The position numbers and the translations under genes were made by a program. The notes below the pieces were generated by a model, which was given only the letters and a program-made list of their open reading frames with translations, did not search any database and was not told the DNA's origin. Below, in pieces: positions 811-30,494 of a stretch of 36,027 nucleotides of DNA. This DNA is from Candidatus Saccharimonadota bacterium (lineage in GTDB: Bacteria > Patescibacteriota > Saccharimonadia > Saccharimonadales > 2-12-FULL-41-12). Positions within the stretch are counted from its first letter, which is position 1. Each line of letters begins with the position of its first letter. The stretch covers positions 1-36,027 of the forward strand of contig JALHOM010000012.1 in the NCBI GenBank assembly GCA_022842995.1, written 5' to 3'.

Positions 811-1714
811 CGAACGACTTGCGACCGGAGTAACTACTGATGTACCAACCCTCAGAATGCTTATCGCTGAAGGCTACAATGTCGCGGCAGTAATTTGCAA
901 TAACCGAGATGCTACATCACGCAAAACAAGAGTTTTAGAGATTGAGGAAGTCGCTCAGAGCGCTGACATCCCTGTTTTAAAGCCCGATAAGCTGCGCGGT
1001 ATCGCCGATCAGCTAAAATCATTAAACGCTGAAATCGGGGTCTTAGTTGCCTACGGAAAGATAATCCCAGAGGATATTATTTCTATTTTCCCTCGAGGAA
1101 TTGTTAATATCCATCCTTCGCTTCTACCCGCACACCGGGGTTCAATCCCGATCGAAAGCGTTATCCTTGATGGCTCAAAATCAACAGGCGTATCGCTAAT
1201 GTCACTGGTCAAAGAGATGGACGCTGGGCCAGTTTATGCTCAAAGCACCGTTGATATTGCACCCAAAAGCACCAAGTCAGAGCTAGCCAGTGAACTGCTC
1301 GATGTCGGGAGCGAAATGCTCAGAGCGCTACTACCAGGAATTATTAGTGGCGAGGTCATCGCAAAGCCTCAAGACAGCTCGCTAGCCACTTACGACAATC
1401 TCATCAGTAAACACGACGGATACATCGACTGGACCACTAAATCAGCTACGCAGATCGAGCGCGAAGTCAGAGCCTACGCCGGCTGGCCCAAAAGCACGGC
1501 CAAAATCGGCCAACATTCAGTTATCATCACGGAATGTTGCGTGAGCGAAACTAACCTCGCACCAGGAGCAATCAAACAAGAAGATCGCCGGCTCATAATT
1601 GGATGCTCCTCTGGCAGTCTTGAGATTCTAAAACTCCTGCCGGAAGGCAAAAAAGAAATGCCTATTTCGGCATTTCTCGCTGGCTATGGGAGTACTCTAA
1701 ACATCAAGAGTTAA
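773..1714 (+). CDS. fmt: Methionyl-tRNA formyltransferase
   Basis: Formylates Met-tRNAfMet with 10-formyltetrahydrofolate to make the initiator. The 313-residue length fits the family. The N-terminal Rossmann-like domain begins TIVFFGNERLA. The catalytic triad is visible: Asn112 and His114 in NIHPSLLPAHRGSIPIE, and Asp150 in KEMDAGPVYA. The usual SLLPRxRGAAPI loop reads SLLPAHRGSIPI, so the first loop Arg is Ala here. The C-terminal OB-like domain starts near residue 220 with GYIDWTTKSATQIEREVRA and contains AGWP. The ATG lies inside def (38-nt overlap), which implies coupling. Downstream is a repeat-rich region, so this is probably the last gene of the unit. Confidence 0.95.
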   Translation: MTQPSKTIVFFGNERLATGVTTDVPTLRMLIAEGYNVAAVICNNRDATSRKTRVLEIEEVAQSADIPVLKPDKLRGIADQLKSLNAEIGVLVAYGKIIPEDIISIFPRGIVNIHPSLLPAHRGSIPIESVILDGSKSTGVSLMSLVKEMDAGPVYAQSTVDIAPKSTKSELASELLDVGSEMLRALLPGIISGEVIAKPQDSSLATYDNLISKHDGYIDWTTKSATQIEREVRAYAGWPKSTAKIGQHSVIITECCVSETNLAPGAIKQEDRRLIIGCSSGSLEILKLLPEGKKEMPISAFLAGYGSTLNIKS

Positions 1715-2020
1715 GAGTTAGAATTCGCTGTACAGCGAAGGAAATAGATAAAAGACCAAAGATTAAAGACTAAAGAGGTGCGACACATCAGCCATAGCTC
1801 ATAGCTAGTGGCTGATTTCTCGCAGTACGTTTTTCCTAAGGTTCATCCCTGAGAGGTGTTATTTTTTACAAGTTTTGTAAAATAACAGATATGGAATAGG
1901 CTTTGCTTGAATACAAGTAAAATCTTAAACTTGTATTTTTTTACACCTCTCAGGGATGAACCTTAGGAAACAATTAGAAAATGGGAATTAGAAATTAGAT
2001 GCAAGACGAAAGACTAAAGC
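1703..2020. repeat. Inverted repeat block, copy A (pairs with 8470-8803)
   Basis: This ~320-bp block recurs in reverse complement at 8470-8803. Matching features in order are GAATTCGCTGTACAGCG (1721-1737), a stretch reading GAGGTGCGACACATCAGCC, a small hairpin (ATCAGCCA...TGGCTGAT), CGCAGTACGT, the 139-bp element, and CAATTAGAAAATGGGAATTAG. Similarity is near-perfect in the middle and decays at both ends, where heptamer-like repeats begin. The two copies flank the minus-strand infB/rpsA block. Confidence 0.9.
1832..1970. mobile_element. 139-bp MITE-like element with 28-bp terminal inverted repeats, copy A
   Basis: The ends are perfect inverted repeats: 1832-1859 starts TTTCCTAAGGTTCATCCC and 1943-1970 is its reverse complement. 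The interior is AT-rich and holds smaller palindromes (TTACAAGTTTTGTAA; ATACAAG...CTTGTAT). It has no coding capacity. An identical-length copy lies at 8542-8680 in the other orientation. No clear target-site duplication is seen at either edge. It could be a non-autonomous transposable element, or a conserved cruciform or bidirectional terminator carried along with the larger duplicated block. Confidence 0.6.
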
Positions 2021-2048
2021 CTAAAGAGCAAAGATTAAAGATTAACGA
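1985..2048. repeat. Degenerate heptamer array (AAGACTA/AAGATTA type)
   Basis: A 7-bp period is visible: AAGACTA AAGCCTA AAGAGCA AAGATTA AAGATTA, preceded by ATTAGAAATTAGATG. A related tract (AAGACCA AAGATTA AAGACTA AAGAGGT) lies at 1751-1778 in the same repeat block. The 427 bases between fmt and the DUF5663-like gene hold only these repeats, the 139-bp element and the terminator hairpin below. Confidence 0.7.
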
Positions 2049-2061
2049 TAAAAAAGTTGTT

Positions 2062-2130
2062 GGCTTTCAGCTTTTCGCTACTAGCAACGAGCTTCTAACT
2101 CTTGACTCATAACTCTCATAGCTGAAAGCT
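2062..2130 (-). terminator. Rho-independent terminator with a heptamer-filled loop
   Basis: AGCTTTCAGCT and AGCTGAAAGCC form the stem on the minus strand, followed after about 6 nt by a run of six T. It lies 10 bp past the stop of the DUF5663-like gene. The unusually long loop (~47 nt) consists of degenerate heptamers (GAGTTATGAGTCAAGAGTTAG), the same word family as the intergenic arrays. Confidence 0.6.
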
Positions 2131-2140
2131 GGTAGCTGAT

Positions 2141-2755
2141 CTACTGCTGAGGTGCGCCGGCACCTGGTTGTGCGGGCGGCTGATAAGGGTACTGAGGCGG
2201 CTCAGGTTGTTGCAATGAGGGGTTGGCAGTCGGTGGCTGTGGTGGTTGCGGATACGCTTGTTGTGCAGCATCCACTTGGCCCGGCTGTTGGACTTGAGCT
2301 GCGGGTGCCACATTTGAGGCGGCTAATATCTGCGGGGCAGCTGTTTTTATTTCGTTCTTTAATTTTTCGAGCTCTTCGGCAACAACGTTCTTGTAGTCTG
2401 GGAAGTTGGTTTCGAGCCACTTCAGGGCGGCAAATTCGCTGATGACGGCATTTGAATTAGACTGAATACCCTGCTCCTGGGCAAAGCGACGCTCATTCTC
2501 TAGTGACATCTGTAATGTTTGATCACTCTGCCAATTTGGAAGAACTTTATTTAGATAGTCGGTCGCCTTAGTAGGGTCTCCGCTCATGAAGCCTTCAAAT
2601 TCAGTCAATTGCTGATCGGTCATACCACTTGCGAGGCGCATACCAACGCGCATTTCCAAAGTCTCATAGATATGAGCCTTCATTTTCTCTTTTTCGTCTT
2701 GCGGTAAGGCCGCAAGACCAAGGCTTGCTAAAAATTCATCATCTATCTGAAACAT
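2141..2755 (-). CDS. DUF5663-like protein with Pro/Gln-rich tail
   Basis: 204 residues. The N-terminal ~60 residues form an all-helical module of the kind found in CPR proteins and labelled DUF5663 (FLASLGLAALP, RVGMRLASGM, LTEFEGFM); the family name is from memory and the function is unknown. A second helical segment spans about 60-140 (ENERRFAQEQG; WLETNFPDYKNVVAEELEKL). The last ~55 residues are a Pro/Gln/Ala-rich tail (PQPPQPPTANPSLQQPEPPQ) that is probably disordered. There is no signal peptide or TM segment. Upstream, TTATACT at about 2800 could be a -10 box, and a weak TTGGAA may serve as the ribosome site. It is the last minus-strand gene before the inverted repeat and has its own terminator. 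Confidence 0.8.
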   Translation of the reverse strand: MFQIDDEFLASLGLAALPQDEKEKMKAHIYETLEMRVGMRLASGMTDQQLTEFEGFMSGDPTKATDYLNKVLPNWQSDQTLQMSLENERRFAQEQGIQSNSNAVISEFAALKWLETNFPDYKNVVAEELEKLKNEIKTAAPQILAASNVAPAAQVQQPGQVDAAQQAYPQPPQPPTANPSLQQPEPPQYPYQPPAQPGAGAPQQ

Positions 2756-8367: not shown

Positions 8368-8399
8368 CCAGGAACTAGTAGCTCGCAGCTAGTTTCTGG
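8368..8399. repeat. Small hairpin between the gene and repeat copy B
   Basis: CCAGGAACTAG and CTAGTTTCTGG pair over 10 of 11 positions with a 10-nt loop. It lies between the upstream promoter of the secreted-protein gene and the heptamer tract at 8430-8505. No T-run follows, so no role is assigned. Confidence 0.4.
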
Positions 8400-8429
8400 A
8401 GGCTCGTTACGACAAGCTAAAAAAGCCTA

Positions 8430-8505
8430 TAACTCTTTAATCTTGTGTCTTATATCTTTAAACTTTTGTCTTTAAACTTTCGTCTTGCATCTAAATTCTA
8501 ATTCC
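8430..8505. repeat. Degenerate heptamer array (CTTTAAA/CTTTTGT type)
   Basis: A 7-bp period is visible: CTTTAAT CTTGTGT CTTATAT CTTTAAA, then CTTTTGT CTTTAAA CTTTCGT CTTGCAT CTAAATT. This is the reverse-strand form of the AAGATTA/AAGACTA arrays near 2000. A further short tract (AATCTTT TGTCTTT AATCTTT) at 8841-8862 runs into the -10 box of the ROK gene. Confidence 0.7.
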
Positions 8506-8803
8506 CATTTTCTAATTGTTTCCTAAGGTTTGTTTCCTAAGTTTCCTAAGGTTCATCCCTGAGAGGTGTAAAAAAATACAAGTTTAAGATTTTACTTGTA
8601 TTCAAGCAAAGCCTATTCCATATCTGTTATTTTACAAAACTTGTAAAAAATAACACCTCTCAGGGATGAACCTTAGGAAAAACGTACTGCGAGAAATCAG
8701 CCACTAGCTATGAGCTATGGCTGATGTGTCGCACCTCTTTAGTCTTTGGTCTTTTATCTATTGCCTTTCGCTGTACAGCGAATTCTAGTCCTTGACTCTT
8801 GAC
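8470..8803. repeat. Inverted repeat block, copy B (pairs with 1703-2020)
   Basis: Reverse complement of the block at 1703-2020. It is slightly longer because TTTCCTAAG is repeated three times at the left edge of the 139-bp element (about 8519-8551). The far end again carries CGCTGTACAGCGAATTC (8769-8785). Beyond it come heptamers of the CTTGACT/CATGACT type. Confidence 0.9.
8542..8680. mobile_element. 139-bp MITE-like element with 28-bp terminal inverted repeats, copy B
   Basis: Same length and near-identical sequence to 1832-1970 in the opposite orientation. It begins TTTCCTAAGGTTCATCCC and ends with the reverse complement of that sequence. Extra partial end repeats (TTTCCTAAG) just outside its left end may mark slippage or repeated end-joining. 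Confidence 0.6.
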
Positions 8804-8862
8804 TCATGACTCGTGTCACCTAACTAATATTTTTTGATCTTTAATCTTTTGTCTTTAATCTT

Positions 8863-8868
8863 TATACT
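8863..8868 (+). promoter_or_regulatory. Candidate -10 box (TATACT) giving a leaderless ROK mRNA
   Basis: TATACT ends 7 nt before the ATG at 8876, the same arrangement as in front of def. No Shine-Dalgarno precedes the ATG. No -35 at 17 bp is convincing. Confidence 0.45.
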
Positions 8869-8875
8869 AAATCGC

Positions 8876-11160: not shown

Positions 11161-14100
11161 CTACCTAACGCGGACAATCTGAAGCGATGTTCCCGTAGCG
11201 CTCGTTGTGAATATCGACTTAGCGCCACCACTGTTGGAAGCGATTCGAATCGATATCTGCTGACCAGCCGTCATGGTGATCTTCCGACTACCGATGCTAG
11301 ACGTTCGATAAGCTGCACCACCCGTGTCGTTACTATCACCATCCCAAACCTGAACGATCGATGCCACCCCTGTATTGTTATAGATTTCCAGGTAAAAATC
11401 TCCAGCACCTGTGGGAGTCATACTGACAACGGCGGTTGCAGTAACCTCATAAACACCGGCTGCCGGGGCTGTAAAGACACCTGTCGTTGTATTGTAGGCT
11501 GTTCCGACATTAATTGTTGCGGTGTTATATGGAAGCGCAGCAACCGCGCCCAAGGCAAAGGCAGTGGTTCGGCGTGACTCAACCAGAATCTGTGGTAACG
11601 AACTCGAGCCTGAAACAATCTGCCAGTTCGTTCCATCTGACTGGACAATAACACTGTCGTTAGCATTAGATAGGATATGTGTCGCCGCTCCGTTAATAGT
11701 CCCTCCTGAGCTGGCTATGGTCGTGTTCGAGCCAGCCGCAGCATTCTTGATTGTATAGAGTCGACCAGAAACCGTGGTGGCATTTGGTAATGTCTGGGTT
11801 GTGTTGGCAGCGTTTACGTAAATAGCTTGCTGGGTCGCGTTCAGAGCAGACGTAGCAGTAAGAGTAACAACTGCGGTTGCCAATGACGTATTCACGACCA
11901 AACCGGAGTTAATTGTCCCGGCACCGGTATTTATGCCCACATTACCTGCGGCATCAATTACCATACGAATATTGCCAGAGGTCTCCATAATAAGCCGGAA
12001 GGCGTCGTTGGTACCTACTCGGGCATCAGCACCAAGAGAATTACCATCCTGACAAAATACATTCGTTCCGGCAGCACAGCTCGTTACACTGATACCGTCG
12101 TTAAACGTCTTAAGCCCGCCGATGGTTTGTGCTGCGTTTGTTACCAAACCTCGAGCTGCCGTCCCGGCATTTGGGAGATTAAGTGTGATCGTAGTTCCCG
12201 ATGGGGCAATGTTAAAGTCGGTCCCAGTCGTGCCCGTATTAATCGTGAGTGCTCCAGTGAGGCCGTTGACCGAATTAGTCGTTCCCTGACAAGCAAAGGC
12301 GCTACCGTTCCAGGTAGCTGCAAAACCTGTCGTGCCACAACTGAGGCCCGTCACGGTATTCCCCGTCCTGCTAAATAGTCCGTTACCGGTAAAGGTCAGG
12401 ACGTTTTCTTTGGCGTTGAAGGTGCTCCAGTCGGCTGCCGTTAGAAGACCATTTTGACCACTGGTTGCCGTTTGAATCGCCGTTGTCCCAGCTGCCGTGA
12501 GCTGACCTTGGGCATTCACCGTGAAGGTCGCAACACCTGTAGCGCTACCGTATGAACCGACTGCTACCGTTGTATTTGCAAGATCAATAGTTCCGATACC
12601 CGAGATAGCGCCACCGCTGAGCCCCGTACCGGCAGTTACACTAGTGACTGTTCCCTGTCTGGTCAACGACACCCAGCCCGAGCCATTGTAGGCCTCGAGA
12701 TCAGAACCATTCCACCTGATAGCACCAGAAGTTGTTGAAGCAGAGTTACCGACGACCAAACCAGCGCTGAAAGTTTGCAGCGCGGTGTAATTTGACGAGA
12801 AATTAAGTAGGCCAACATTGGAGCTGAGCTGCGAGTCGGCAATTGTTCCAGAGCTAATACTACTAGCACTTATATTAGTAAGTCCCGCACCGTCACCGGT
12901 TATTGAGCCAGTAATGTTGACCGTCCCACCTAGGTTAACCGTGCTTGAACCGCCACCTATATTAAGAGTTGTGGCGCTACCGCTCAAGAAATCAAACGAG
13001 GCGGCACTGCTCGTAATGCCGTCTTCACCGAAGAATGTCGTACCATTACCAGTTGCGATGCCGGAGATGAAGTAACCACGACCGTAGCGGCCAGAGAGTG
13101 GCTGAGAGGTGTTAACGCCGCCAATTTCTGGTATATGGTATTCGTTAACTGTCGACCCATTTGCCCAAGATAAAGCCGGCGATATAGTAAGAGTATTAAC
13201 CACTTTATTAGTAATCTTGGCGTAACAAGGGTTGACCCCGGCACCACCACAGTTAGCTGAGTTAACCTGGACGTAATTACCGATATCGAAGTTAGCGGCA
13301 TTCACTAATATAAGAGACGTCGAGTTGGCTCCGACGCCATTGGAAGTCGACGTACCGTTAAGCACGGTAGCCGCACCCGTGATATCACCGTCAGTATTAA
13401 CATTAAACTTAGCATTTGCCGCCGATAGCGACCCTTCGACACTTAGCCCGGCAAGGCCAGCGCCGCTGTTCGTTATATTAAGTGTCGTATTGGCGCCGTC
13501 ACTAAGGTTAAAGCTAAAGGCACCAGCGGCAACCCGCTGTAAACTAGTGTCGCTTGAAGCAATACCGAGTACGTTAGATGCTGAGTCAAATGTTAATGCT
13601 CCAGCTCCTCCTGAAGCTACTGTTAGCGCACCAGAACCAGTCAGGCTGGCGATGTTGGAAACCGCACCAACGGCCGAGATATCTATGCCAGAACTATCAA
13701 CTGCGAAAGTTCCGCCGTTGTTATTGAAGCTAAAGTTACCGGCATTTTGCGTAAAGCCCGTAATGCCACTGAGCGATCCGGCGTTAATGACCAAACCGTT
13801 GATTGTATCTGTCGCCGTAGCACCAGTGATAGCACCGCTAAGAGATAACGTTGTAAGACCAGAAATTGCACCAATATTCGTGATACCGCCGTTGTTATTG
13901 TCAATTCCTCCAGTGATATCGGCACCGCCAGCGGTTACCGTGAGCGCGTTTCCGACAGTGACACTGTTTACAAACTGTGCCGCCCCGGCGCTACTAATGC
14001 TCATTGCTTCGACGTTGTTGGTAATAAAGCTTAAACCTTGGTTATCGGTTGTGCCAATTGTTGCCGTTGATCCAAACGCGTTACCACTCTGGACGAAAGC

Positions 14101-15531
14101 CTGAAGGGTCTGGCCGGCACCAGCAACGCGAGTAGCAGTAAGAAAACTACCGGCTAACACTGAGGTATTGGCAGCATTGGCGGTGTTTTGAGCCCAGTTA
14201 AGGGTTACATTTCCAGCCGTTGCGCCATTGACTATAGTTCCAGCAATTTCAAATACATCTGTAGCCGTTGACATTGGCACCGAACCACTACTAACACCAC
14301 AGCCGAGGTTTCCGACGGCCAGAGCGTTTTCGGCCTCAGATACGCTGTTAATACATGTCGCTCCAGCAGGTGCCGTCACGCTGAATTTTACGTCTGGAGC
14401 TGTATTACCTGTAATCTGCAAGTGGAACCTATAGTGCCATGTCTCGTTCGCACCGACTGCGAAGAATAACTGGTCATCTGGTTGCAAAGTTGCTGTTGGG
14501 TTAAGGACGTTATTCTGGATCTCGGTAACTGTTTTTGACTTATTTGCCGTAGGAATAACGCTTAACGTCCCTGATAAGGTCAGCGACTTCCAAGACGTTC
14601 CATCATATCCTTCGAAATCAGTTCCGTTCCAGCGTATAGTACCGGCATTGGTGTTTGTCGTGTTGCCAATTTTAATTCCGCCGTTTACTTCTAGCTTTTC
14701 TACGGCATCTGCATTCGTACCAATACCAACATCACCCGACTGATCGATTCGCATAGCCTCAAGATTATCCGTCTCGAAAATCAAATCGTTAGTGTTGTTC
14801 GTACCGAGTGTGGCGGTTCCGCTTGCAAAGTTATTTCCACCGTTAGCAAAGCCGGTTGAGTCAAGCAGTACAGTGCCGTCGGCATCAGGAAGTAAAATAT
14901 TACGGCTCTGCGTAAGTGTTGCCCAAGAAAGATCTCCTGTCAGGGAAGCTTGTCGCTCGATCAAGCTCATGGCACTACCCGCCTGGAAAGCATATGGAAC
15001 TCCGGTGAGTTTCGTACGGGCATTGCCTGGAGCAAGCATTTCGCCGTCGTAGGTTGGAGTTGCTGTTTGGGCCGATCCACCGACGTTCATGGTCATCCAA
15101 AGCTCTTCACTCCAGTTGATTGTCCCTGGGAAGGCCGTTTGCGAACCGAGATTTACCGAAAAATATCCATTCACTACCCGAACGCGGTTATCGTTACCAG
15201 GACTAACACCGTTGCTATCGAAATAGCTTTCAGTCCAGAGCTGAGTACCGGCATTCGCTTGCCCTACACCTGCCGGTCCGCCCTGAGTGCCACCATCGTA
15301 GATCCTAAACTCCAGGTTGTAGAGTCCATCCGGTACAACGGATCCGTTCGAGTTGTAGATTCGCCCTTGGAAATTCAAGTTGCTACTGGTTGCTGCTTGA
15401 ACTTGCGAGGAAGAACCGATCACGCGCGTATATGTATATACACCGAGACAAGAAGAAAAAATCACGAGAACAAAAATCAAAAACCTTCTCAGGTATAGCC
15501 TATTCAACAGAGGTGAAAATAGTTTTTGCAT
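11161..15531 (-). CDS. Giant tail-fibre-like surface protein with C1q-like C-terminus
   Basis: 1456 residues. The N-terminus is a signal anchor or signal peptide (FLIFVLVIFSSCLGVYTYT, about 17-35, with a possible cleavage near VQAA). A beta domain follows at about 50-190 (LNFQGRIYNSNGSVVPDGLY...GVPYAFQAG). The long middle is a Gly/Thr/Asn/Ala-rich fibre with modules known from phage tail fibres and CPR surface proteins: DVGIGTNADAVEKLEVNGGI; GTIRWNGTDFEGYDGTSWKS and a second copy GAIRWNGSDLEAYNGSGWVS; and TSVTAGTGLSGGAISGIGTI. The last ~130 residues (FALGAVAALPYN...GVFTAPAAGVYEVTATAVV...QISIRI) resemble a C1q/TNF-like jelly roll, which trimerises and binds ligands. A host-contact fibre or adhesin is inferred. 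No catalytic motif was seen. No ribosome site is clear in the A-rich leader. Confidence 0.85.
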   Translation of the reverse strand: MQKLFSPLLNRLYLRRFLIFVLVIFSSCLGVYTYTRVIGSSSQVQAATSSNLNFQGRIYNSNGSVVPDGLYNLEFRIYDGGTQGGPAGVGQANAGTQLWTESYFDSNGVSPGNDNRVRVVNGYFSVNLGSQTAFPGTINWSEELWMTMNVGGSAQTATPTYDGEMLAPGNARTKLTGVPYAFQAGSAMSLIERQASLTGDLSWATLTQSRNILLPDADGTVLLDSTGFANGGNNFASGTATLGTNNTNDLIFETDNLEAMRIDQSGDVGIGTNADAVEKLEVNGGIKIGNTTNTNAGTIRWNGTDFEGYDGTSWKSLTLSGTLSVIPTANKSKTVTEIQNNVLNPTATLQPDDQLFFAVGANETWHYRFHLQITGNTAPDVKFSVTAPAGATCINSVSEAENALAVGNLGCGVSSGSVPMSTATDVFEIAGTIVNGATAGNVTLNWAQNTANAANTSVLAGSFLTATRVAGAGQTLQAFVQSGNAFGSTATIGTTDNQGLSFITNNVEAMSISSAGAAQFVNSVTVGNALTVTAGGADITGGIDNNNGGITNIGAISGLTTLSLSGAITGATATDTINGLVINAGSLSGITGFTQNAGNFSFNNNGGTFAVDSSGIDISAVGAVSNIASLTGSGALTVASGGAGALTFDSASNVLGIASSDTSLQRVAAGAFSFNLSDGANTTLNITNSGAGLAGLSVEGSLSAANAKFNVNTDGDITGAATVLNGTSTSNGVGANSTSLILVNAANFDIGNYVQVNSANCGGAGVNPCYAKITNKVVNTLTISPALSWANGSTVNEYHIPEIGGVNTSQPLSGRYGRGYFISGIATGNGTTFFGEDGITSSAASFDFLSGSATTLNIGGGSSTVNLGGTVNITGSITGDGAGLTNISASSISSGTIADSQLSSNVGLLNFSSNYTALQTFSAGLVVGNSASTTSGAIRWNGSDLEAYNGSGWVSLTRQGTVTSVTAGTGLSGGAISGIGTIDLANTTVAVGSYGSATGVATFTVNAQGQLTAAGTTAIQTATSGQNGLLTAADWSTFNAKENVLTFTGNGLFSRTGNTVTGLSCGTTGFAATWNGSAFACQGTTNSVNGLTGALTINTGTTGTDFNIAPSGTTITLNLPNAGTAARGLVTNAAQTIGGLKTFNDGISVTSCAAGTNVFCQDGNSLGADARVGTNDAFRLIMETSGNIRMVIDAAGNVGINTGAGTINSGLVVNTSLATAVVTLTATSALNATQQAIYVNAANTTQTLPNATTVSGRLYTIKNAAAGSNTTIASSGGTINGAATHILSNANDSVIVQSDGTNWQIVSGSSSLPQILVESRRTTAFALGAVAALPYNTATINVGTAYNTTTGVFTAPAAGVYEVTATAVVSMTPTGAGDFYLEIYNNTGVASIVQVWDGDSNDTGGAAYRTSSIGSRKITMTAGQQISIRIASNSGGAKSIFTTSATGTSLQIVRVR

Positions 15532-16460: not shown

Positions 16461-17097
16461 TGCGGCGTTGCCTTATAAGACACCTACTTCGTAGGTTTCT
16501 CATCGTAAGCCTAGCGAAATAAATTCGCTACCGCTAAAGCGGTCGGCTTACTGCTCTTCCCAGTCTGTGCCAGGAAAAACAACGTCTTTATCGATACCCA
16601 TTAATGGACCGTTTGTGCTCTTCTAAGGGCTTAGCTTGTGGTTTTATCTCACCGTACATTAAGTACGGCTCGCTAAAATCCTCGCTGCCTTCGCGTAATC
16701 ATCTCAGGCGCAAAGCCCAAAATTCATTTCGGGACATATGCGTCTTCTAAGGGCATAAAACGATTTCAATCGGTGTCCACTTTCGTGGTGATCGTTTATT
16801 AAGGCTGACATGTTTATATAGATAAACATGCGGGTTTGGTGTTTTGGCCCTTCGATATACTCAGGGTCATCTGTTTGCAAGCAAACAGATGGTAAACACC
16901 AACAACTAGTCAATGCACTTGTTTCCAAGAGGGACACATATGGTTCTATAGCGAGGCGCCGTCGAGAACAGCAAAGGAGACGTACAAAAGTACGTCGACT
17001 GCTGGTCGCAGACGAGCAACAAAGCTAGAGAGCCATAAGCTGTTAGCAGTACTGGCTATGCCAGTGCTGATTAACAGCGGTGTGTTTCTCTTGGACG
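16461..17097 (-). other. Long 23S-5S spacer with strong hairpins, no tRNA
   Basis: At ~637 nt this is long for a 23S-5S spacer. No tRNA signature (GGTTCRANTCC) was found on either strand. Perfect or near-perfect hairpins include CATCTGTTTGC/GCAAACAGATG (~16867-16892), CATGTTTAT/ATAAACATG (~16808-16831), CCGTAC/GTACGG (~16652-16668), GACGTAC/GTACGTC (~16979-16998) and GCTGTTA...TAACAGC (~17039-17078). Positions ~16893-16918 pair with the 23S leader (see processing stem). CTTCTAAGGGC appears twice (~16620 and 16743). Confidence 0.7.
16886..16918 (-). other. Trailer arm of the pre-23S processing stem
   Basis: TGCATTGACTAGTTGTTGGT on the minus strand is complementary to the leader sequence ACCAACAACTAGTCGATGCA at about 20905-20928, giving 20 bp with one G-U. 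Further pairing continues through TACCAT/ATGGTA. Such leader-trailer stems are cut by RNase III in bacteria. Confidence 0.7.
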
Positions 17098-17308
17098 TAA
17101 AAAGTCAATGGGGCTATTAGTACCTCTCAGCTAAACACGTCACCGTGCGTACACTTAAGGCCTATCAAACAGATCGTCTATCTGTGCCCTCCATAGGGAA
17201 ATCTAATCTTGAGGTTAGTTTCGCGCTTAATATGCTTTCAGCGCTTATCTAGTCCGCACATAGCTACTCAGCAATGCCATTGGTATGACAACTGATACAC
17301 CAGCGGTG

Positions 17309-17341
<33 letters not shown>

Positions 17342-17377
17342 TCCTCTCAAATTTCCTGACGTCCACAGCGGATATAA

Positions 17378-17411
<34 letters not shown>

Positions 17412-17529
17412 ACGTACCTCTTTAACCGGCGAACAGCCGGACCCTTGGAAGGTGCTCCCCCTCCAGGATGAGATGAGCCGACATCGAGGTGCCAAACAGC
17501 GCCGTCTATGTGAACTATTGGGCGCTATA

Positions 17530-17562
<33 letters not shown>

Positions 17563-17776
17563 TGCGCTGTCGATCCCACATTCATGTACAAATGTACGGA
17601 CAGCGGATCACTTACTCCGACTTTCGTCCCTGATTGGATTGTAATCCTCACAGTCAAGCTGGCTTATGCGTATGCACTATCACTACGATTTCCATCCGTA
17701 GTTAGCCAACCTTTGAACGCCTCCGCTACTCTTTAGGAGGCAACCGCCCCAGTTAAACTACCCACCAGACACGGTC

Positions 17777-17905
17777 CCAAGACCAGAAACTGAGGATCAA
17801 TTTCTGGATAGTTATCGGTAATCCGTAATCAGTAGTCCGAAAATAACGGATAACTGAAGACGGATACCTGACTACTCCAAAATTGCTCCGCAATTTGTGG
17901 CCTTG
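17777..17905 (-). other. 23S expansion 1 (near E. coli ~2200, H79 region)
   Basis: Between the conserved segments around CAGACACGGTCCC and ACAAGGGTGGTATTTC the standard gene has ~40 nt; here there are ~130. The insert has its own pairing (GTTATC...GATAAC; AATTGCTCCGCAATT). The helix assignment is from memory of the E. coli map. Confidence 0.6.
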
Positions 17906-18027
17906 GTAAGAATAAAACTACAACAAGGGTGGTATTTCACATTGCGACTCAGCTTAGACTGGCGTCTAGGCTTCAAAGTCTCCCACCTATTCTACACATG
18001 TTGCAGCTCGATCCAATGTCAAGCTGT

Positions 18028-18059
<32 letters not shown>

Positions 18060-18348
18060 GCGGACAGACGGCATCTTTACCGTCAATGCACTTTCACCGA
18101 GCTCTTCGTCGAGACAGTACCCAAATCATTACTCCATTCGTGCGGGTCAGAACTTACCTGACAAGGAATTTCGCTACCTTAGGACGGTTATAGTTACCGC
18201 CGCCGTTCACCGGGGCTTCAGTTCGCACCGTGAAGCACTCCCCTTAACCTTCCGGCACCGGGCAGGAGTCAGCCCCTATACATCCACTTTCGTGTTAGCA
18301 GAGACCTATGTTTTTGGTAAACAGTTGCTTGGGTTCCTTAGCTGCGGC

Positions 18349-18554
18349 CCCGTCACACTATTTACAAAGTATTTAGTGATCAGTTGACCTAGCTTTTTTG
18401 GTTACTTTTAATTTTTACTTCTTTAAAAAGTAAAAATTACTCGACATACTTGGTAAATAAATATACCTGAAAAGTTGTTAAAAACTCTCAGGATACAGTT
18501 TTTATTCGTTCCAAAAAAACTAGCAAGTCACAGTTTGTAAACACTGTGACGGGG
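18349..18554 (-). other. 23S expansion 2 (H63 region, ~206 nt)
   Basis: CCCCGTCACA (18349-18358) and TGTGACGGGG (18545-18554) pair perfectly, and TTTACAAA/TTTGTAAA extends the helix to ~20 bp. The 3'-side arm can also fold alone as GTCACAGT/ACTGTGAC. The interior is AT-rich (TTTTTACTT...AAGTAAAAA). No ORF for a homing endonuclease is present. Confidence 0.7.
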
Positions 18555-19049
18555 CAGACCTTATCCCGAAGTTACGGTCGCTATATTGCCGAGTTCCTTG
18601 ACGAAGAATCACTCGTACACCTTGGTCTACTCGACCTGAGCACCTGTGTCGGTTTACGGTACGGTCGACTATGTACACGCGCTTGTAAGCTTTTCTGGTC
18701 AGCACTTTTACTGAAATTCAACTCATAAATGAGCCGTTTCATTCGTAGCCATTTCTACTACTTAGACGGATATAACCATGAATCCGCTCCAGCTAATATG
18801 CCGCGCACTACAAACAATACATAATCGGTACGGGAATATTAACCCGTTGTCCATCGCCTACGCTACGCGCCTCGGCTTAGGCCCGACTAACCCTGGGACG
18901 ATTATCGTTGCCCAGGAAACCTCGCTCTTTCGGTGGGCAGGATTCTCACCTGCCTTATGGTTACTCATTCCAACATTCTCACTTCATACCGCTCCACCGA
19001 ACCTCGCAGTTCGACTTCAACGCTGATATGAACGCTCCTCTACCACTCA

Positions 19050-19168
19050 TGCGCCTCACGCAAGCGAGAGTCGCAGAGCTAAGAGCTATAAGCTATGAGC
19101 TATGAGAAAAAATCTCATGACTCATGACTCAAGGCTCATGACTCTGCGTCTCACCTATGTGAGGCGCA
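19050..19168 (-). other. 23S intervening sequence in helix 45, made of heptamers
   Basis: TGCGCCTCAC and GTGAGGCGCA (19050-19059/19159-19168) close the insert at the helix 45 position, a classic IVS site in other bacteria. Inside, two 35-nt arms beginning at GCAGAG and ending at CTCTGC pair as a long imperfect hairpin around a short A-rich loop. Each arm is a run of 7-bp units: AGAGCTA, TGAGCTA, TGACTCA. The units are AGCTATG-type in one arm and AGTCATG-type in the other, so each repeat contributes the same two-base wobble/mismatch. Confidence 0.8.
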
Positions 19169-19783
19169 CAAATCCATATCTTCGGTGCTATGCTTAGCCC
19201 CGTTACATTTTCCGCGCAAGATCTCTTGACGAGTGAGCTGTTACGCACTCTTTAAATGAATGGCTGCTTCTAAGCCAACATCCTCGTTGTTTAAGAAATC
19301 TCACCTCGTTTCCCACTTAGCATAGACTTAGGGACCTTAGATGATGGTCTGGGCTGTTTCCCTTTTGAGCGCCGATCTTCGCACCGACGTTCTAACTGCC
19401 GTAGTTCCACAATTGGTATTCGTAGTTTGTCAAGGGTGGGTACGCTTGCGCGCCCCAGTCCGAAACAGAGCTCTACCCCCAATTGCTACCGTACGACGCT
19501 AGCCCTAAAGCTATTTCGAGGAGAACCAGCTATCTCCAGGTTCGATTAGCATTTCACCGCTAACCACAGGTCATCCAAGCGCTTTGCAACACGCCCTGGT
19601 TCGGCCCTCCACGTGGTTTTACCCACGCTTCAGCCTGCCCATGGTTAGGTCACCTGGTTTCGGGTCTACTGATAGCTACTTATTCGCCCTATTCAGGCTC
19701 GCTTTCACTATGCGTCCGCCAAATGGCTTACGCTCGCAACTACCAGTAACTCGTTGGATCGTTCTACAAAAAGCACGCCGTCA

Positions 19784-19902
19784 CCGGGATGAGACAAACC
19801 TACGGTTTTTCTCATCGCTCGTCAGCAAAGCTGACCCTAAAGGGCAAGCTCGCTGCTCTTTTCCCTTAGGAACGACGAAAAGGTAGATTTACCTAATCCC
19901 GG
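19784..19902 (-). other. 23S intervening sequence in helix 25 (family member d)
   Basis: CCGGGAT and ATCCCGG (19784-19790/19896-19902) close a ~105-nt insert at the helix 25 position, the other classic IVS site. It begins TGAGACAAACCTACGG on the plus strand and contains CTCGCTGCTCTTTTCC, both shared with the inserts at 20077 and 20445. A ~26-nt extra piece (GTCAGC/GCTGAC hairpin and CCCTAAAGGG) interrupts the shared part. Confidence 0.8.
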
Positions 19903-20076
19903 CTCCGACTCCTTGTACGCACATAATTTCAGGTTCTATTTCACTCCCCTTCCGGGGTTCTTTTAACCTTTCCCTCACGGTACTTGTTCTCTATCGATCA
20001 TAAGATATATTTAGCCTTGGGAGGTGGTCCTCCCAGATTCAAACAGGATTTCTCGTGTCCCGTCCTACTCGACAAC

Positions 20077-20215
20077 TACTGTAATGAGACAAAACCTAAA
20101 GGTTTTTTCTCATCGCTTCGCTGCTCTTTTTCCAAAGCAGACATAATTTTACCGAACTAAATTCGGAAAAATTAAGAATATCGATAAGCCCTCTGGGCTT
20201 AGTCTCACTACAGTA
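20077..20215 (-). other. 23S intervening sequence, family member e (139 nt)
   Basis: TACTGTAATGAGAC (20077-20090) and GTCTCACTACAGTA (20202-20215) close it, 13 of 14 pairs. It lies in the 5' domain (about E. coli 270-365). On the plus strand it shares TGAGACAAAACCTA, GGTTTTTTCTCATCGC and TCGCTGCTCTTTTTCC with member f. Confidence 0.8.
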
Positions 20216-20444
20216 TGCAGCGCAATTGCTGCTTGTAAATATAAGGTTAGCGAAACTTAATGTACTAGGCTTTCACTATCTATGGCCTGACTTTCCAGAC
20301 AGTTCCACTCGCCTCGCTGATTTTTTACCTTATGCCGGATAATGGTAGCTCCAGCTTCCAAATCCCGATACAGTCAAAGACTGCACCAAGACTTGGTTGT
20401 TTACAATGTCACAACCCTTTTTAAGTATTCGTCTACCAACTTAT

Positions 20445-20584
20445 CTACAATGAGACAAAACCTACGGTTTTTTCTCATCGCCTCGCTGCTCTTTTTCCCT
20501 AAAAGCAGACAAAATAAATCCGAAATAAATTCGTATTTTATTTTGAATTAAACGATCAGAACCATAAATTTGGTCTCACTGCAG
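20445..20584 (-). other. 23S intervening sequence, family member f (140 nt)
   Basis: CTACAATGAGAC (20445-20456) and GTCTCACTGCAG (20573-20584) close it with two G-U type positions. The first ~65 nt on the plus strand are near-identical to member e and share most of member d; the second half differs (AT-rich hairpin AATAAAT...ATTTTATT). Confidence 0.8.
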
Positions 20585-20904
20585 AAACTTAAAAAGTTTG
20601 GGCTATTCCAATTTCGCTCGCCACTACTTTCGGAATCGTTGTTTACTTTCTCTTCCTCGGGGTACTAAGATGTTTCAGTTCCCCCGGTTACCGCTAACAA
20701 GCCTATGTATTCAACTTGAAGTGCAATGGACATGACTCCATGCGGGTTTCCCCATTCGGATATCTTCGGTTCAAAGCTTGATTGGCAGCTCCCCGAAGCT
20801 TATCGCAGCCTTCTACGTCCTTCATCGGTATCTTATGTCAAGGCATCCGTTATGTGCGCTTGAGTAACTTTTTACGTTAATTTCGAGTGATCGAAATATG
20901 CATC

Positions 20905-23266: not shown

Positions 23267-26200
23267 CTAAGGTAATGGACAGTCAGCATCGACAGACTGC
23301 CGACACGGTGTGTCCAGCGGCTGTTGCTCGCCTCCCGTAAATGTCTTGCCGTGGCGCAAACGCTTAGATGGATCAGAGGTAAAGAACAGCGAAAGGTCAC
23401 TAATTGTCGGACCCCTGTTGACGTCTTCTGGATATCCGAATGTCTGGGATGCATCGATAGTCACATAGAAATAATAGTAGCGAGCACAGTTGATGTTCCC
23501 TCCACCACTGTTTCTGGCCGTATAGGTAGAGACGTTACCCAAGATTACGTTAGCTGCCGTACTTTCCTGGCCCCAGCCAGTCATTGGCGCCATGGTCGCG
23601 GACGTACCACAGTCTTCATTAGGATTTTGCTGCAAGGTATACGTTGATGGAGGCGTAGTTAACACGGAATCACTGCCACCAGAAACTGGGTTAATGTCAT
23701 GCATACTTCTATACGACATGCGCCACCGTGCCCCGATAGAGTTATCGAGACCGTTCATAAGCCATGACGTTGGGAAAACGTCGGTGTCGGTGTCGATCAT
23801 CCTCGAATACGAAGCCACCTGCGGCTGAGAATACAGACCAGACTGTACCGTACGATTTCCCTCAGTATATGAAACGCCGGCAGGACGAATTGCTATGGTC
23901 AACGCAACACCATTACTGTTTGAAGGCATGGTAAAAGCTGCAGGGTTTTCACTCGCAACCCGCGATTCTCTGCGAGCTGAAGACGTTGTTGCTCTATCTG
24001 CAGCGACACCGCCCGTGCTGCCAGTGTGTGTACCGTTGGTGTAATTTGTCGGGTAAGTCGTGACCGAGGCATATTCTGATCCAGCTGAATATGCTAGCCA
24101 GAGCGTATTCTGCGTTCCCCAGCTTCCAGGGTCTAAGTTAGGAGGGTCAGGAGTTGTTGTTGTTCCACCTGGGTCAACAGTAGCCGCATTAACACCGGTG
24201 GCGACCGTTCCATGCCATCTATTTGCCGGGATCCTATATACTTGAGCTGACGCTTGCTGAGCATTTGCCGTTTCAAAATTAACATTTGTACCATCTTCCG
24301 TCCCAACTGCATCAATAGCAAAGACCGAGCCCCGAATATTAGCACCTCTCGTAGCTGAAGCTACAGCCGTCCAGCCGGCTGGCGTGGTCACCGCAGCATC
24401 GGTATCACTGCTAAATAATACAAGTAGTAAATCTCCCGGATCGACGGTGGCCGGCATGGTGACGTTATGCGGTATCGTATCCGTATTGAATGCCTGCGTT
24501 GACACCGAGCTAACGGATGGGAATAACTCGCAGCCCCCACCGGTTACATACATCTTACCGTTGGCATACGCGACGGCGTTTCCGTACCGATCACCGCTAT
24601 AGCGGGCATTTGTTTCATACCACTCACCAAGACCGGTCGAGTTATTCCCTGTTGCAATCGTCGTATTTGCACTGATTGGTGCCAGCAAAGTATTTGGCAC
24701 ACAGTCCACATCAGAACTCCTTCCGCCAACGAGATACATATACCCATTGGCCGCAAAAGCATCGGCCTGAATAATTGGCTCTGGCAGACTTGTCGTATAC
24801 GACCAAGTACCCAGCGAGCCATCGAGCACCGTATACCCTGTTCCGGACGGTAAAGTCTTAGAAACACTAACCGTCATGCTCGTACCACTAGGGACGGTCA
24901 AAATTGTGGCAATTTCCCCATCTCGATATTGCAACGTTGACCCTATCATGGCGGTCGTCCATGCCGTACCCGTTCCGGTGATTGCACTTCCTGTTTGCTG
25001 GATAGTACCGGCCTTATAGCCGATAGAAGTATACTGGACATCACTCAAATACTGCGTACCGTTTGAACCACCCATAATATAGATATTGTTGGCATAGGCA
25101 ACCGCCGAATGCCCAAATCGAGCGATATTAAAGGTATTGGTGCTGGTTGTCCATGCCGCCCCGATTATACCGCCCGTTAACTTAGGGCTGATGTACGTTA
25201 CGTTAGATACTGCCCCTGTGGAATCGTATCCTCCGGTTACGTATATTCGATCGTCCCAAACTGTCGAACTAAATTTTGTTCGACCATCTGGCAGATCATT
25301 AGCCGCTCCAACAGTACCCCACGTTGGGTTTCCCGAGGTAATACCGGTTGTATAGTAGATAGTCTCATACTCATTCGTAGCTGTGTTGTCCTGGCCACCG
25401 ATGTAATATAGCGTGTTTTGGACAGCCTCAAGCTGACCCCAAGCCCTCGTTGCCGGCAATGCACCACCCGTATTCCAAGCATTGGTCAGATTTCCATAAT
25501 CATCGATTTGCGTATACTGGACGCTGTCAGTGGTCGTCGAACAATCATCATTACTTGTACAGCCACCGGCTACATATAGATAACCGTTTAAAATCACGCT
25601 ACTGGCGCCAATTCTATCAGTCGCAAATTGGTTGGTGCTTGCGGTATATCCAATCGGTGTACCACTGTCGTTGTTATATAACTGGAAGGTCTGAACCTCT
25701 GGCTGCATCGCCGTACACTGATCGGGCGCACCACCAGTACCACATCCTCCGATAGCATAGACGTAGCCGTTGCTCACAATAGTCCTCAGATCCCATCTTG
25801 GCGTCACCACAACGCCTGAGCTATCCCAAGCACTCAACTGGCCCGTACTCACATCAATTTTTGAGAACAAAAGATCCTGCAGTGAAGCAGAGCCACTAAA
25901 TCCGGCCAGAGAATAGATATAGCCATTGTAGCCAAAGGCTACTGCACGACGCCGAACAGGGTCCATGAGTGCCGTAGCAAACGTCCAGTTTGACCCCCCA
26001 TCAGTACTAACAATATCATTATTGTTATCTATTGCTGCAAACATCGTTACCTCACGGTTTGCATTGAATGGTGACCGACAAGGTCCGAGCGTTCCTGCTA
26101 CCGGACATGCCCCGCCAACCAGATAAACCCGGTTAGCGTATACCGTTCCACTCATCAGCCCGATTCCTTGATTACCTGTAGCGCCTGCAGTAATGTCGGC

Positions 26201-29200
26201 ATCTACCTGAAGTTGTCCTGCTGTTGTGCAATCATTTAGATCATCTTCCTCAAGCAGCCCTGATGGCAATATATTACATTTATAAACACCGTTGAAATAT
26301 GTATTACAGCCAATTCCATTTCCAGCAGTACCGAGGTTGCAGCCTCCGATAACATATAAATTACCCGGGTACGTGCTGGCTGCTGAAGGGTTAGCTCGGG
26401 TAAAGGCATAGGAGTAGCCTCTGGCCGTTCCCAGATCCAGATTTGCAAACGTCTGAGTAGACCATGCGCCAGACAGTGACCCATCTGCGTTTAAAAGTAC
26501 ACTCCATACGTTGGCCTGCCAGTTGTCGCCGTTAGTTCCTCCGACAACATACACATAGTTATTAAATACTGTTACCGCACCTGTTCCCACCCCAGTAGTC
26601 CCATTAATCCTGTTGGTATTATCGACACACCATAGTCCATAACTCGTATTCGGTGAAGCACAGACAGCCGGCGCAACCATCTGGCCAGTTGAGCTTAACG
26701 CAGCATATGCAACATTGCCGCTCATCTCAGAGGCACCGTTATAGCATTCTTCAGTCGTTCCAATATTCGTACAACCACCGATGTTATATATAAAGCCATT
26801 ATTAATTACTACCATGCTCGACATCTGGCCACCTTGTCCAGCAGCGTCACCGGCTGGTGGCAAGTCACAGTTCACCGGACTAACACCACTACACGGGGCA
26901 AACGTATCTGGCTCAGAGTTACTCACGGTACTGGCGTCACCAGGTGGGTTAACGGCACCGAACTCCACGTTACGATGTGTCGCAAAACAAACACCGGTTG
27001 AGGTATTTTGACGATTGCAGCCACCGGCCCGATACAGACCACCTTGCCAAGCCATGAAGTTATGCCCAATTCGTTGATTGCTCAAGGTTGCGATGGAGTT
27101 CCACGGTGATAAACTGCCATCGGCATTGATGCTTGCCAGCTGCACATCACTCGCCACCGTGGAACAGAAACCACCCGTTAAGGCCGTACAACCCCCAGAC
27201 ATATAAATATAAGCACCCCAAACAGCGGTCATTTGGCCACCAAAACTGGCTCGGGCAGTCGTAAAGTTACTGGTGGCCTGCCAGGCGTTCATCCCGCCCG
27301 TACTGGTTAACTTGCTGTAGAATACGGTGTTGCGGAGTGTGCCGTTATTGTTGCCACCGATGATGTACATAAAGTCGTTATAGATATGTATTGAGTGGCC
27401 AAAACGTGCCGTCGGGGTTGTTAGGTCCTGCATATTGGTCGTCGACCAGGCGGATATATCCCCGGTCGGCAAAATATCGGCGGCATGAACAGTGTTTATG
27501 CTAGCACCAGCAGTGTCACGACCACCAACTAGATACAATTTGTTTTTATAAGCTGCAATAGAGGTATATGAGCGTGCGCTGGGTAATGTATTGGATGAAG
27601 CAAACCAATACGCAGGTGTCCCGCCCATCGGGTGCCATAACTGTGGTTCGCCATTGGCTCCGAGTTTCGCAACCCAAACGGTGTTCGTGCCATTTGCTGC
27701 AGTTCCATTAGTCGTCCCGCCAAGGGCGTATAAATAACCGTTGTAGGTGGTCATCGACATCCCCACCCTATTGGCCGGCAAATTATACGCCGAGTTCGAA
27801 CACCAACCGTTGCACGTACCAGTTCCGGGGTTTGGACTATCAATGGCGTATGTTGTGTCATTGAACTGGGCCCACTCTACCGTATTTTGATACCCTGCAG
27901 TCACCGTAGCAGCCCTGATCGGCAAAGAAGAGGAGCCATATGAATCAACCAAGATGCCGTCACTGGCTAAATTTGCGGCCGCAGCTGCGTTGGTTGCCAA
28001 TGGAGGCTGATCAAGCGTTGCAACAACCAGCCCAGCGCTGTTTGCATTCGCCACCAAACTCGCTCCTGAAAACACCTTGGTATGGCCCGAAGGTAGCCAC
28101 GTATATTCCGAAGGGTCATCATCATCAATCGCGGCAGCCCGTAAAATTAATGAAGCATCTGTATTGGGGGTTACCGCTGGGAACTGCGGTATCCCATCCG
28201 AAGCATTGAAGCCACGTCCTGTACAACTCGGCAACGGCGTACAGGCGATAGGGTTTACTGGGTCAAAACCTTTTATGCGAACAATTACCCCGACCCATTG
28301 CTCGGAGGCAGCCCCTGTCCAGACATAACTTGCAGCCTCATTACCGCCGCCGGCGTCTGTGCCAATTTTGTAATATGCAGCATGCTCCCTGGTGCTGCCA
28401 CCGCCGGCATCATTATCGGCATATTCGGTCCATCCAGCCGGTGGCGTTACCGTCATCGCAGCGTCGTGAGCAATCAATGCAACGTAGAGATCTCCTGCTG
28501 GTCGAGTCGTCGGCATATTCATGGTAAAGGTTGTGCTGTCGGTTGTCTGAACCGAGGACTGTTGAGAGGCAATATACGGCATAGTCGGGTCAATTCTTCC
28601 CCCCGCCCGATACACATAACCCCCAGCAGCAGCCATAGAGTGGTCCCATAAGCCCGCGGCCATATCTACACTGTCAACCCAGCCGTCGATTCGCGCACCC
28701 GTAGTCTGGCTCTTCTGGATGAGCTGATTTGTTGTATCAAAATCGATGTTCGTTTCGTTATTTCCCTTCATCAACTTCCGGGCAGATTCAATATAGATGG
28801 TCGGGTCGATACTCAAAGGGTAATTAGCTTGATCAAGACCCATTGCCTTGATAGTCAAGGTATTTCCGACAAGCGTGTACTGGGCCGAGGCTTTACTCTC
28901 TTTTTTAATTCCTTCTAAAATTACCGGCTTAGGAATCGAGAACACGAGTTTTGTTTTAGCCCCATTCTTGCGGGCTTTTTCAAGTAATTGAGCATCCTTT
29001 TCAGTTGCTGTTTTTACATCTCCCAACATCGGTGAATCAATTCCATAAACCCCTATCGAGCCATCTGGTTCTAGGCGAGCTTCAGTGCCTGCTGGTAAGC
29101 CGAGTTCGTAATCAAAGCTCATCTCCTTTTCGTGAAATTTATGCAATATGATGTCTTCTTTAACACCAGTGGCCTGCAACGAGTAAACCTTCGTAGCGTC

Positions 29201-30385: not shown

Positions 30386-30407
30386 GTGGAAGAGAAGAAT
30401 GTTGGTT

Positions 30408-30494
30408 AGCTGTGAGCTGTGAGCTGTGAGTCGTGAGCTATGAGACATGAGCTTTGAGCTATGAGTCATGAGACATGAGTCATCAGTTGTATGG
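30408..30494. repeat. Degenerate heptamer array (AGCTGTG/AGTCATG type)
   Basis: About twelve consecutive 7-bp units: AGCTGTG x3, AGTCGTG, AGCTATG, AGACATG, AGCTTTG, AGCTATG, AGTCATG, AGACATG, then decaying. Consensus is AGYYRTG. The same units build the helix-45 insertion of 23S at 19078-19147. The rest of the 30386-30704 interval shows no supported gene. Confidence 0.8.

Follow-up and report, generated by a model that had tools for sequence, protein, structure and literature searches.

Degenerate 7-bp tandem repeats of a Saccharimonadota bacterium and their probable origin by slippage-type duplication

The degenerate 7-bp repeats found in a 36,027-nt stretch of DNA (hereafter the window, which is contig C12 of the assembly) belong to a population of degenerate tandem repeats that extends across the genome and is specific to its lineage. 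The best explanation for these heptad arrays, and one that we consider reasonably likely, is recurrent slippage-type duplication of 7 nt, accompanied by mutation and by the copying of composite blocks, with the repeats surviving at sites where they are harmless.

The genome comprises 1,111,147 bp on 30 contigs and was read as stretches; contig C30, which is entirely N, is excluded from the array lists. Gene calls come from a simple ORF caller that scores hexamers, and gene starts are therefore approximate. Strict arrays were defined as windows of 28 nt in which at least 75% of the positions are identical at lag 7. By this definition, the 190 kb of intergenic sequence yields 67 arrays, compared with 0.0 in ten dinucleotide-preserving shuffles. 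The same scan gives 34, 14, and 8 arrays at lags 14, 21, and 28, which are harmonics of period 7, and 0–2 arrays at each of the other lags between 2 and 30. An origin by chance or from base composition is excluded by the shuffles and by these other lags. The period-7 signal that the original prediction proposed to look for in intergenic DNA thus extends beyond the window and is absent from shuffled sequence. Only 10 strict arrays lie within called genes. Relaxed settings recover 73 arrays in 46 clusters across the genome (∼63 per Mb). In their excess at exactly 7 nt, their intergenic location, and their dispersal through the genome, the arrays correspond to intergenic heptameric tandem repeats of the SSR/STRR type.

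In the window, the heptads in question lie in the 426 bp that separate fmt (773–1714, Formyl_trans) from a convergent DUF5663 gene (2141–2755, minus strand; PF18908 match, E=4e-18). The features of this gap and of related loci in the window are as follows, with the strand given where one is assigned.

1706–1722, plus strand: GAGTTAA/GAGTTAG heptads that begin at the fmt stop codon (TRF period 7)
1724–1739: 16-bp palindrome TTCGCTGTACAGCGAA, whose 4-nt flank duplication is decayed here (AGAA/GGAA)
1742–1777, plus strand: AAAGAYT heptad array
1786–1816: hairpin TCAGCCATAGCTCATAGCTAGTGGCTGA built from AGCTA-type units
1832–1970: inverted doublet of 139 nt with outer AAGGTTCATCCCTGAGAGGTGT (−68.6 kcal/mol, z=−12.4)
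1972–1999, plus strand: AATTAGA-type heptads
1997–2052, plus strand: AAAGAYT heptad array
2063–2129, minus strand: stem-loop 3′ of the DUF5663 gene, with three GAGTYAW heptads in its loop
2093–2119, minus strand: GAGTYAW-type heptads
8380–8870, minus strand: inverted second copy of the 1700–2050 composite (85% identity over 408 nt)
8435–8500, 8736–8754, 8791–8812, and 8830–8868: arrays of the second copy
8767–8782 and 8545–8677: palindrome and inverted doublet, respectively, of the second copy
17814–17860, minus strand: heptad-like hairpin in the 23S rRNA gene (z=−5.1)
19070–19144, minus strand: GAGTCAT/GAGCTAT arrays that form the two arms of a long 23S hairpin (−74.7 kcal/mol, z=−11.2)
30400–30490, plus strand: GAGCTGT/GAGTCAT heptad array flanked by two large genes

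The heptad units reported to recur in the gap were all located, as AAAGAYT, AATTAGA-type, and GAGTYAW-type arrays. The description of a 47-nt loop holding heptads is exact: a stem formed by 2120–2129 and 2063–2072 encloses a loop at 2073–2119 that carries GAGTTAT, GAGTCAA, and GAGTTAG. This structure had been called a terminator after a DUF5663-like gene. The gene and the stem-loop are both present, whereas a terminator is plausible at most, since the fold just modestly beats shuffled sequences (z=−2.2) and the T-run begins ∼8 nt past the stem. An Rfam search of the window returned no known structured RNA other than the 23S and 5S rRNA genes. The minus strand of the window also carries very large reading frames at 11161–15531, 23267–29812, and 30705–35969 (1456, 2181, and 1754 aa).

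The arrays are built from several unit families: AAAGAYT, GAGTYAT, AAATTAG/GAATTAG, GTAGCTA, CTAGAAA, CAGTTAT, AACGGCT, and AACAGCT. CAGTTAT is the TAACTGA repeat on the opposite strand (C1:132166–132233). Single gaps hold several families side by side and in both orientations. When the units of this genome are aligned on AG, the mismatch between adjacent units is.13,.05,.31,.35,.32,.19, and.11 for the seven columns. AG (CT on the opposite strand) is the best-kept dinucleotide, and the middle columns vary (.31–.35), which agrees with the earlier view that the arrays are not a simple microsatellite and keep a first A(A)G around a variable middle. Since AG had also set the phase of the arrays, the dinucleotide was retested against permuted units. 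AG/CT is present in 73 of 78 consensus units from this genome, compared with 56 for permuted units, and this excess is the largest among all dinucleotides. In eight other genomes, AG/CT occurs in 53 of 65 consensus units where 44.6 are expected. This merely moderate excess rules out AG as a universal anchor. A shared AG register over whole composites was likewise ruled out, since coherence is lost past ∼80 nt.

In three separate data sets, units are more alike when adjacent than when far apart. In this genome, the Hamming distances at unit separations 1–4 are 1.53, 1.87, 2.09, and 2.44, compared with ∼2.0 when unit order is shuffled. Part of the effect at separation 1 is ascertainment, because detection by lag-7 identity favors similar neighbors, whereas the gradient over separations 2–4 is not directly forced by the detection rule. 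Stop codons on both strands are found in 21 of 40 consensus units, compared with 8.5 for permuted units. This excess hints at selection; it is a hint only, because the units are not independent of each other.

Larger blocks are also copied. A ∼300-bp composite occurs in ten copies that share the core CCAACCACAACCGAATAAAACATACTCAG, followed by a variable count of CTAGTTT or TAATTCC heptads. When the copies are aligned, they differ in unit number, and the CTAGTTT tail ranges from ∼2 to 8 units.

Arrays of different unit families are interrupted by the 16-bp palindrome TTCGCTGTACAGCGAA and its close variants. Palindromes within arrays were observed at 1724–1739 and 8767–8782 of the window and at C1:31738, C2:38779, C5:7701, C5:46549, C7:51396, C7:52119, C25:4299, and C16:15887. 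Exact 4-nt flank duplications accompany seven of 20 members of this palindrome family, and the duplicated sequences include TTCT, TCCT, TCAT, and TCAC. Among 264 intergenic palindromes collected by a sequence-independent search, only five have a 4-nt flank duplication, and all five belong to the TTCGCTGTACAGCGAA family. At six sites, deletion of the palindrome plus 4 nt (16+4 nt) restores the 7-nt register with 6–7 of 7 junction matches, compared with ∼2 matches for most other deletion lengths. These results show that the arrays are older and that the palindromes were inserted later. A search for a full-length transposon bounded by the 8-nt palindrome halves (TTCGCTGT...ACAGCGAA) and 4-nt duplications found none.

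The inverted doublet at 1832–1970 has 44-nt arms that are 86% complementary. Its sequence occurs in 15 copies and forms three inverted doublets, all located in gaps with heptads (two on C12 and one on C21). Copies in inverted orientation, at 3814 (plus) and 4485 (minus), also flank a RAYT-like gene on contig C14 (3870–4478). Nine AAGGTTCATCCCTGAGAGGTGT copies lie within 22 kb around this gene (L044, 986–22293), a cluster that suggests a recently acquired element. With its dispersed copies and its inverted copies flanking a RAYT gene, the doublet resembles REP/REPIN elements, but it does not carry a GTAG/GTGG head beside a short palindrome. We therefore name AAGGTTCATCCCTGAGAGGTGT a RAYT-associated inverted repeat rather than a REP.

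The arrays favor gene 3′ ends. Of the 39 clusters that lie outside genes, 21 come to within 40 nt of a gene 3′ end with one edge, whereas random intergenic placement gives 5.1±2.1 (300 draws, highest 13). Thirteen of the 39 are near a gene 5′ end, where 5.7 are expected. Arrays are found in 12 of 76 convergent gaps (16%), 23 of 374 tandem gaps (6%), and 4 of 105 divergent gaps (4%), and heptads occupy the whole distance between the two stop codons of several convergent pairs. Of the two locations raised in the original prediction, gene ends are preferred, whereas stem-loops hold only some of the arrays.

Heptads also reach into conserved genes. The 23S rRNA gene (17096–20874) is 3779 nt long, ∼850 nt above the 2925-position Rfam model, and heptad hairpins are among its insertions. 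In the long 23S hairpin, GAG lies opposite CUC every seven bases. In-frame heptad arrays are found in genes for Fpg (C1:96236–97189), TilS (C11:7548–8468), ribosomal protein L1 (C6:49581–50603), a membrane protein (C3:63314–65287), and a glycosyltransferase (C3:73195–74334), all named from sequence alone. In Fpg, AAGAYTA heptads encode an insert of ∼23–25 residues, which is placed in a loop between MTGQMVYV and ERFGAGHP. This loop has 2–4 residues in 14 of 15 aligned relatives, and in one relative (G016, locus L288) it carries an unrelated insert of ∼26 residues. Heptad insertions are likely in TilS, the N terminus of L1, and the membrane protein. For TilS, a clean insertion is doubtful, since the segment is replaced instead of plainly inserted. 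An rRNA explanation for the arrays in the C3:63314–65287 reading frame was rejected, as this frame has no Rfam match. Rickettsia-type RPE are palindromic sequences inserted in frame into protein genes; here an in-frame insert is clear in Fpg, and its sequence is a heptad array and not a palindrome.

The repeats are nearly absent from sister genera. Saccharibacteria relatives (109 loci, 1.45 Mb) contain 4.1 lag-7 arrays per Mb, compared with 63.4 in this genome, whereas the values are similar at lag 6 (6.2 and 8.4) and lag 9 (6.9 and 7.5). The pattern GAGTYATGAGTYATGAGTYA has 90 matches in this genome and six in G042, whereas 57 of 60 relatives have no match. Inheritance from the order is ruled out by the near absence of arrays in sister genomes. 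The fmt/DUF5663 convergent pair is kept in 78 relatives, where the gap is mostly short compared with the 426 bp observed here; the median gap estimate falls below 0 because the C terminus of the DUF protein varies.

Across the phylum, 380 genomes were scanned for seven AGs at an exact spacing of seven, for which the chance expectation is ∼0.008 per genome. Such arrays occur in 117 of the 380 genomes, with many different units, and spacing 8 occurs in 40 of 380. The genome studied here has 93 matches at spacing 7 and 0 at spacing 8. G202 has 30 period-7 arrays in 100 kb of sampled stretches, and G351 has 12 period-7 and six period-8 arrays in 84 kb, although its stretches were partly picked for known arrays. 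Degenerate AG-anchored period-8 arrays were observed in G351, G352, G343, G188, G140, G110, and G419, and some of those in G351 and G352 are hairpins of AGCT-type units. Within the phylum, the arrays thus turn up in a patchy manner, and each recurrence brings new units.

The data establish the abundance of the arrays, their period, their lineage restriction, their positions, the insertions into them, and the composite copies, and slippage as the generator is inferred. In this process, 7-nt units would duplicate in tandem repeatedly, with seven as the favored step, by slipped-strand replication or unequal exchange, and the duplicated units would diverge through point mutation. Composite blocks would be partly re-copied elsewhere in the genome. 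Arrays would survive where they are least harmful: just past stop codons, within convergent gaps, in protein loops that are exposed, and in stems of the 23S rRNA, whose oppositely oriented arms pair. Once present, the arrays took up small palindromic insertions, namely the 16-bp palindrome with its 4-nt duplications and the inverted doublet. This origin is favored because the excess is limited to period 7, neighboring units are similar, and unit counts differ among copies. It is favored also because the fmt/DUF5663 gap is short in relatives, the Fpg insert is absent from 14 of 15, the arrays lie at 3′ ends and in convergent gaps, and removal of the palindrome plus 4 nt restores the register. 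In published heptamer arrays, indels come in steps of 7 nt (PMC4679880), and closeness to stop codons and inverted pairs have likewise been described (PMC4692102). According to a proposal reported in PMC4692102, a step of seven mirrors the stretch of DNA that the polymerase holds. Slippage alone does not predict the retention of AG/CT across different families or the period of 7. The positions of the arrays would reflect harmlessness and not function, although the stop codons on both strands hint against pure harmlessness.

The retention of AG/CT would be expected if a RAYT/TnpA-REP transposase (an HUH nuclease) made or spread the arrays by cutting single-stranded DNA at CT and joining it at other CTs, since this would keep CT/AG constant while the remaining bases vary. 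Cleavage of single-stranded DNA at CT next to hairpins is known for TnpA-REP (PMC8266576), and RAYT genes have inverted palindromes on both sides (PMC2817692). AG/CT is indeed the most over-represented dinucleotide of the units. The genome has five Y1_Tnp genes that meet the PF01797 cut-off, one of them flanked by inverted copies of the window's doublet, but the 4 kb on either side of each gene contain no array. The four that were scanned match NF047646 REP_Tyr_transpos (E 6e-12 to 3e-9), although with scores of 37–46 bits, under the curated cut-off of 80. Among the 380 genomes, a RAYT-profile match is found in 37 of 49 array-rich genomes (at least five matches of the period-7 pattern) and in 128 of 331 others (OR 4.9, P=2e-6), whereas canonical IS200-type transposases show no link to arrays (OR 0.78). 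However, the RAYT association is not significant once stratified by family (p=0.12), and 12 of the 49 array-rich genomes have no RAYT match, including G405 with 60 array matches. Furthermore, the published GGGAATC and GGGGATT arrays have no CT/AG, and the known RAYT reaction offers nothing that sets a 7-nt step. On balance, we regard a transposase origin as unlikely. The broader proposal that, throughout Patescibacteria, a RAYT-type HUH transposase generates and diversifies CT/AG-anchored heptads, making the arrays the footprint of a domesticated transposase and not of slippage, is somewhat more doubtful still.

Two further alternatives give the arrays a function. The preference for gene 3′ ends, the enrichment in convergent gaps, the several arrays in or beside hairpins, and the stop codons on both strands could reflect selected 3′-end elements, such as terminators or RNA stabilizers that are partly bidirectional. 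However, most arrays are stemless runs in a single orientation, only 12 of 76 convergent gaps hold them, and related genera have none at the equivalent fmt/DUF5663 junction. Some arrays are inside Fpg and 23S rRNA, and merely tolerated insertions would show equal positions, as REP elements do. A selected function of this kind therefore appears improbable, about as much so as transposase involvement in this genome. Fixed 7-nt spacing, an invariant AG, and a variable spacer would also suit binding sites with one heptad per protein subunit, for example for a cold-shock or CsrA-like RNA-binding protein, and there is a precedent in CspB, which binds as one protein per heptamer (cited in PMC4679880). 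However, the unit families have little in common except AG, whose register fades past ∼80 nt; the arrays run in either direction and lie at 3′ ends instead of translation starts; and different genomes use unrelated units. Protein binding is thus very unlikely to explain the arrays.

Intergenic heptamer arrays are a kind of repeat that is already known, and the earlier statement that no named family matches does not hold. Calothrix, Nostoc, and Xanthomonas have such arrays (PMC4692102), as do Beggiatoaceae, Cyanobacteria, and Bacteroidetes (PMC4679880), and a Nostoc tRNA-Leu intron likewise contains heptads (PMC4476775). The Xanthomonas GGGNATC, Nostoc GGGGAYT, and Calothrix STRR repeats (PMC4692102) also have a 7-nt unit and are intergenic and genome-wide. 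As here, their positions are fixed or variable, they lie near or overlap stop codons, they often occur in inverted pairs, and heptamers are over-represented while other unit sizes are normal. They differ in forming one G-rich, G-quadruplex-capable family, whereas the present genome has several A/T-rich, AG-anchored families. Runs of G in its common units are no longer than two residues, compared with a tract of 3–4 G per unit, and its arrays are more degenerate, are mixed within one gap, and have embedded palindromes.

The TAACTGA repeats of Beggiatoaceae, Cyanobacteria, and Bacteroidetes (PMC4679880) are intergenic direct repeats represented here by one array only (C1:132166–132233), and in Microcystis and some Bacteroidetes they are mixed with other heptamers, as in this genome. 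In Beggiatoaceae, however, they are near-perfect, consist of a single unit, and lie upstream of start codons, whereas the arrays studied here are degenerate, use many units, and favor 3′ ends. In Nostoc, degenerate TDNGATT/NNTGAGT heptads form the P6b stem of the tRNA-Leu intron (PMC4476775). The 23S hairpin is built alike, and GAGTCAT and GAGTTAT fit NNTGAGT in rotation. The Nostoc heptads form one intron stem, whereas those reported here are a genome-wide intergenic population that also enters 23S rRNA; the window contains no tRNA-Leu intron. REP, BIME, and REPIN elements with RAYT (PMC2817692; PMC8266576) are likewise extragenic mosaics at gene 3′ ends that contain palindromes. In contrast, the heptad arrays are non-palindromic and do not flank RAYT genes, and the doublet has no GTAG head. 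As far as the literature we searched shows, the host phylum, the AG/CT-anchored degeneracy, the mixture of unit families, and the insertion of palindromes into arrays are new.

The over-representation of heptamers among bacterial repeats is a long-standing unanswered question. Patescibacteria offer many independent outbreaks with differing units, a shared period, and some period-8 arrays, in tiny genomes with little non-coding DNA. The many independent outbreaks mean that polymerase geometry, selection, and transposases can be compared across lineages. To judge from the 16-bp palindromes and their 4-nt duplications, arrays appear to serve as targets for a very small insertion unit. Finally, the process reaches conserved genes, as shown by the heptads fixed in frame in a gene for DNA repair and by those in the 23S rRNA.
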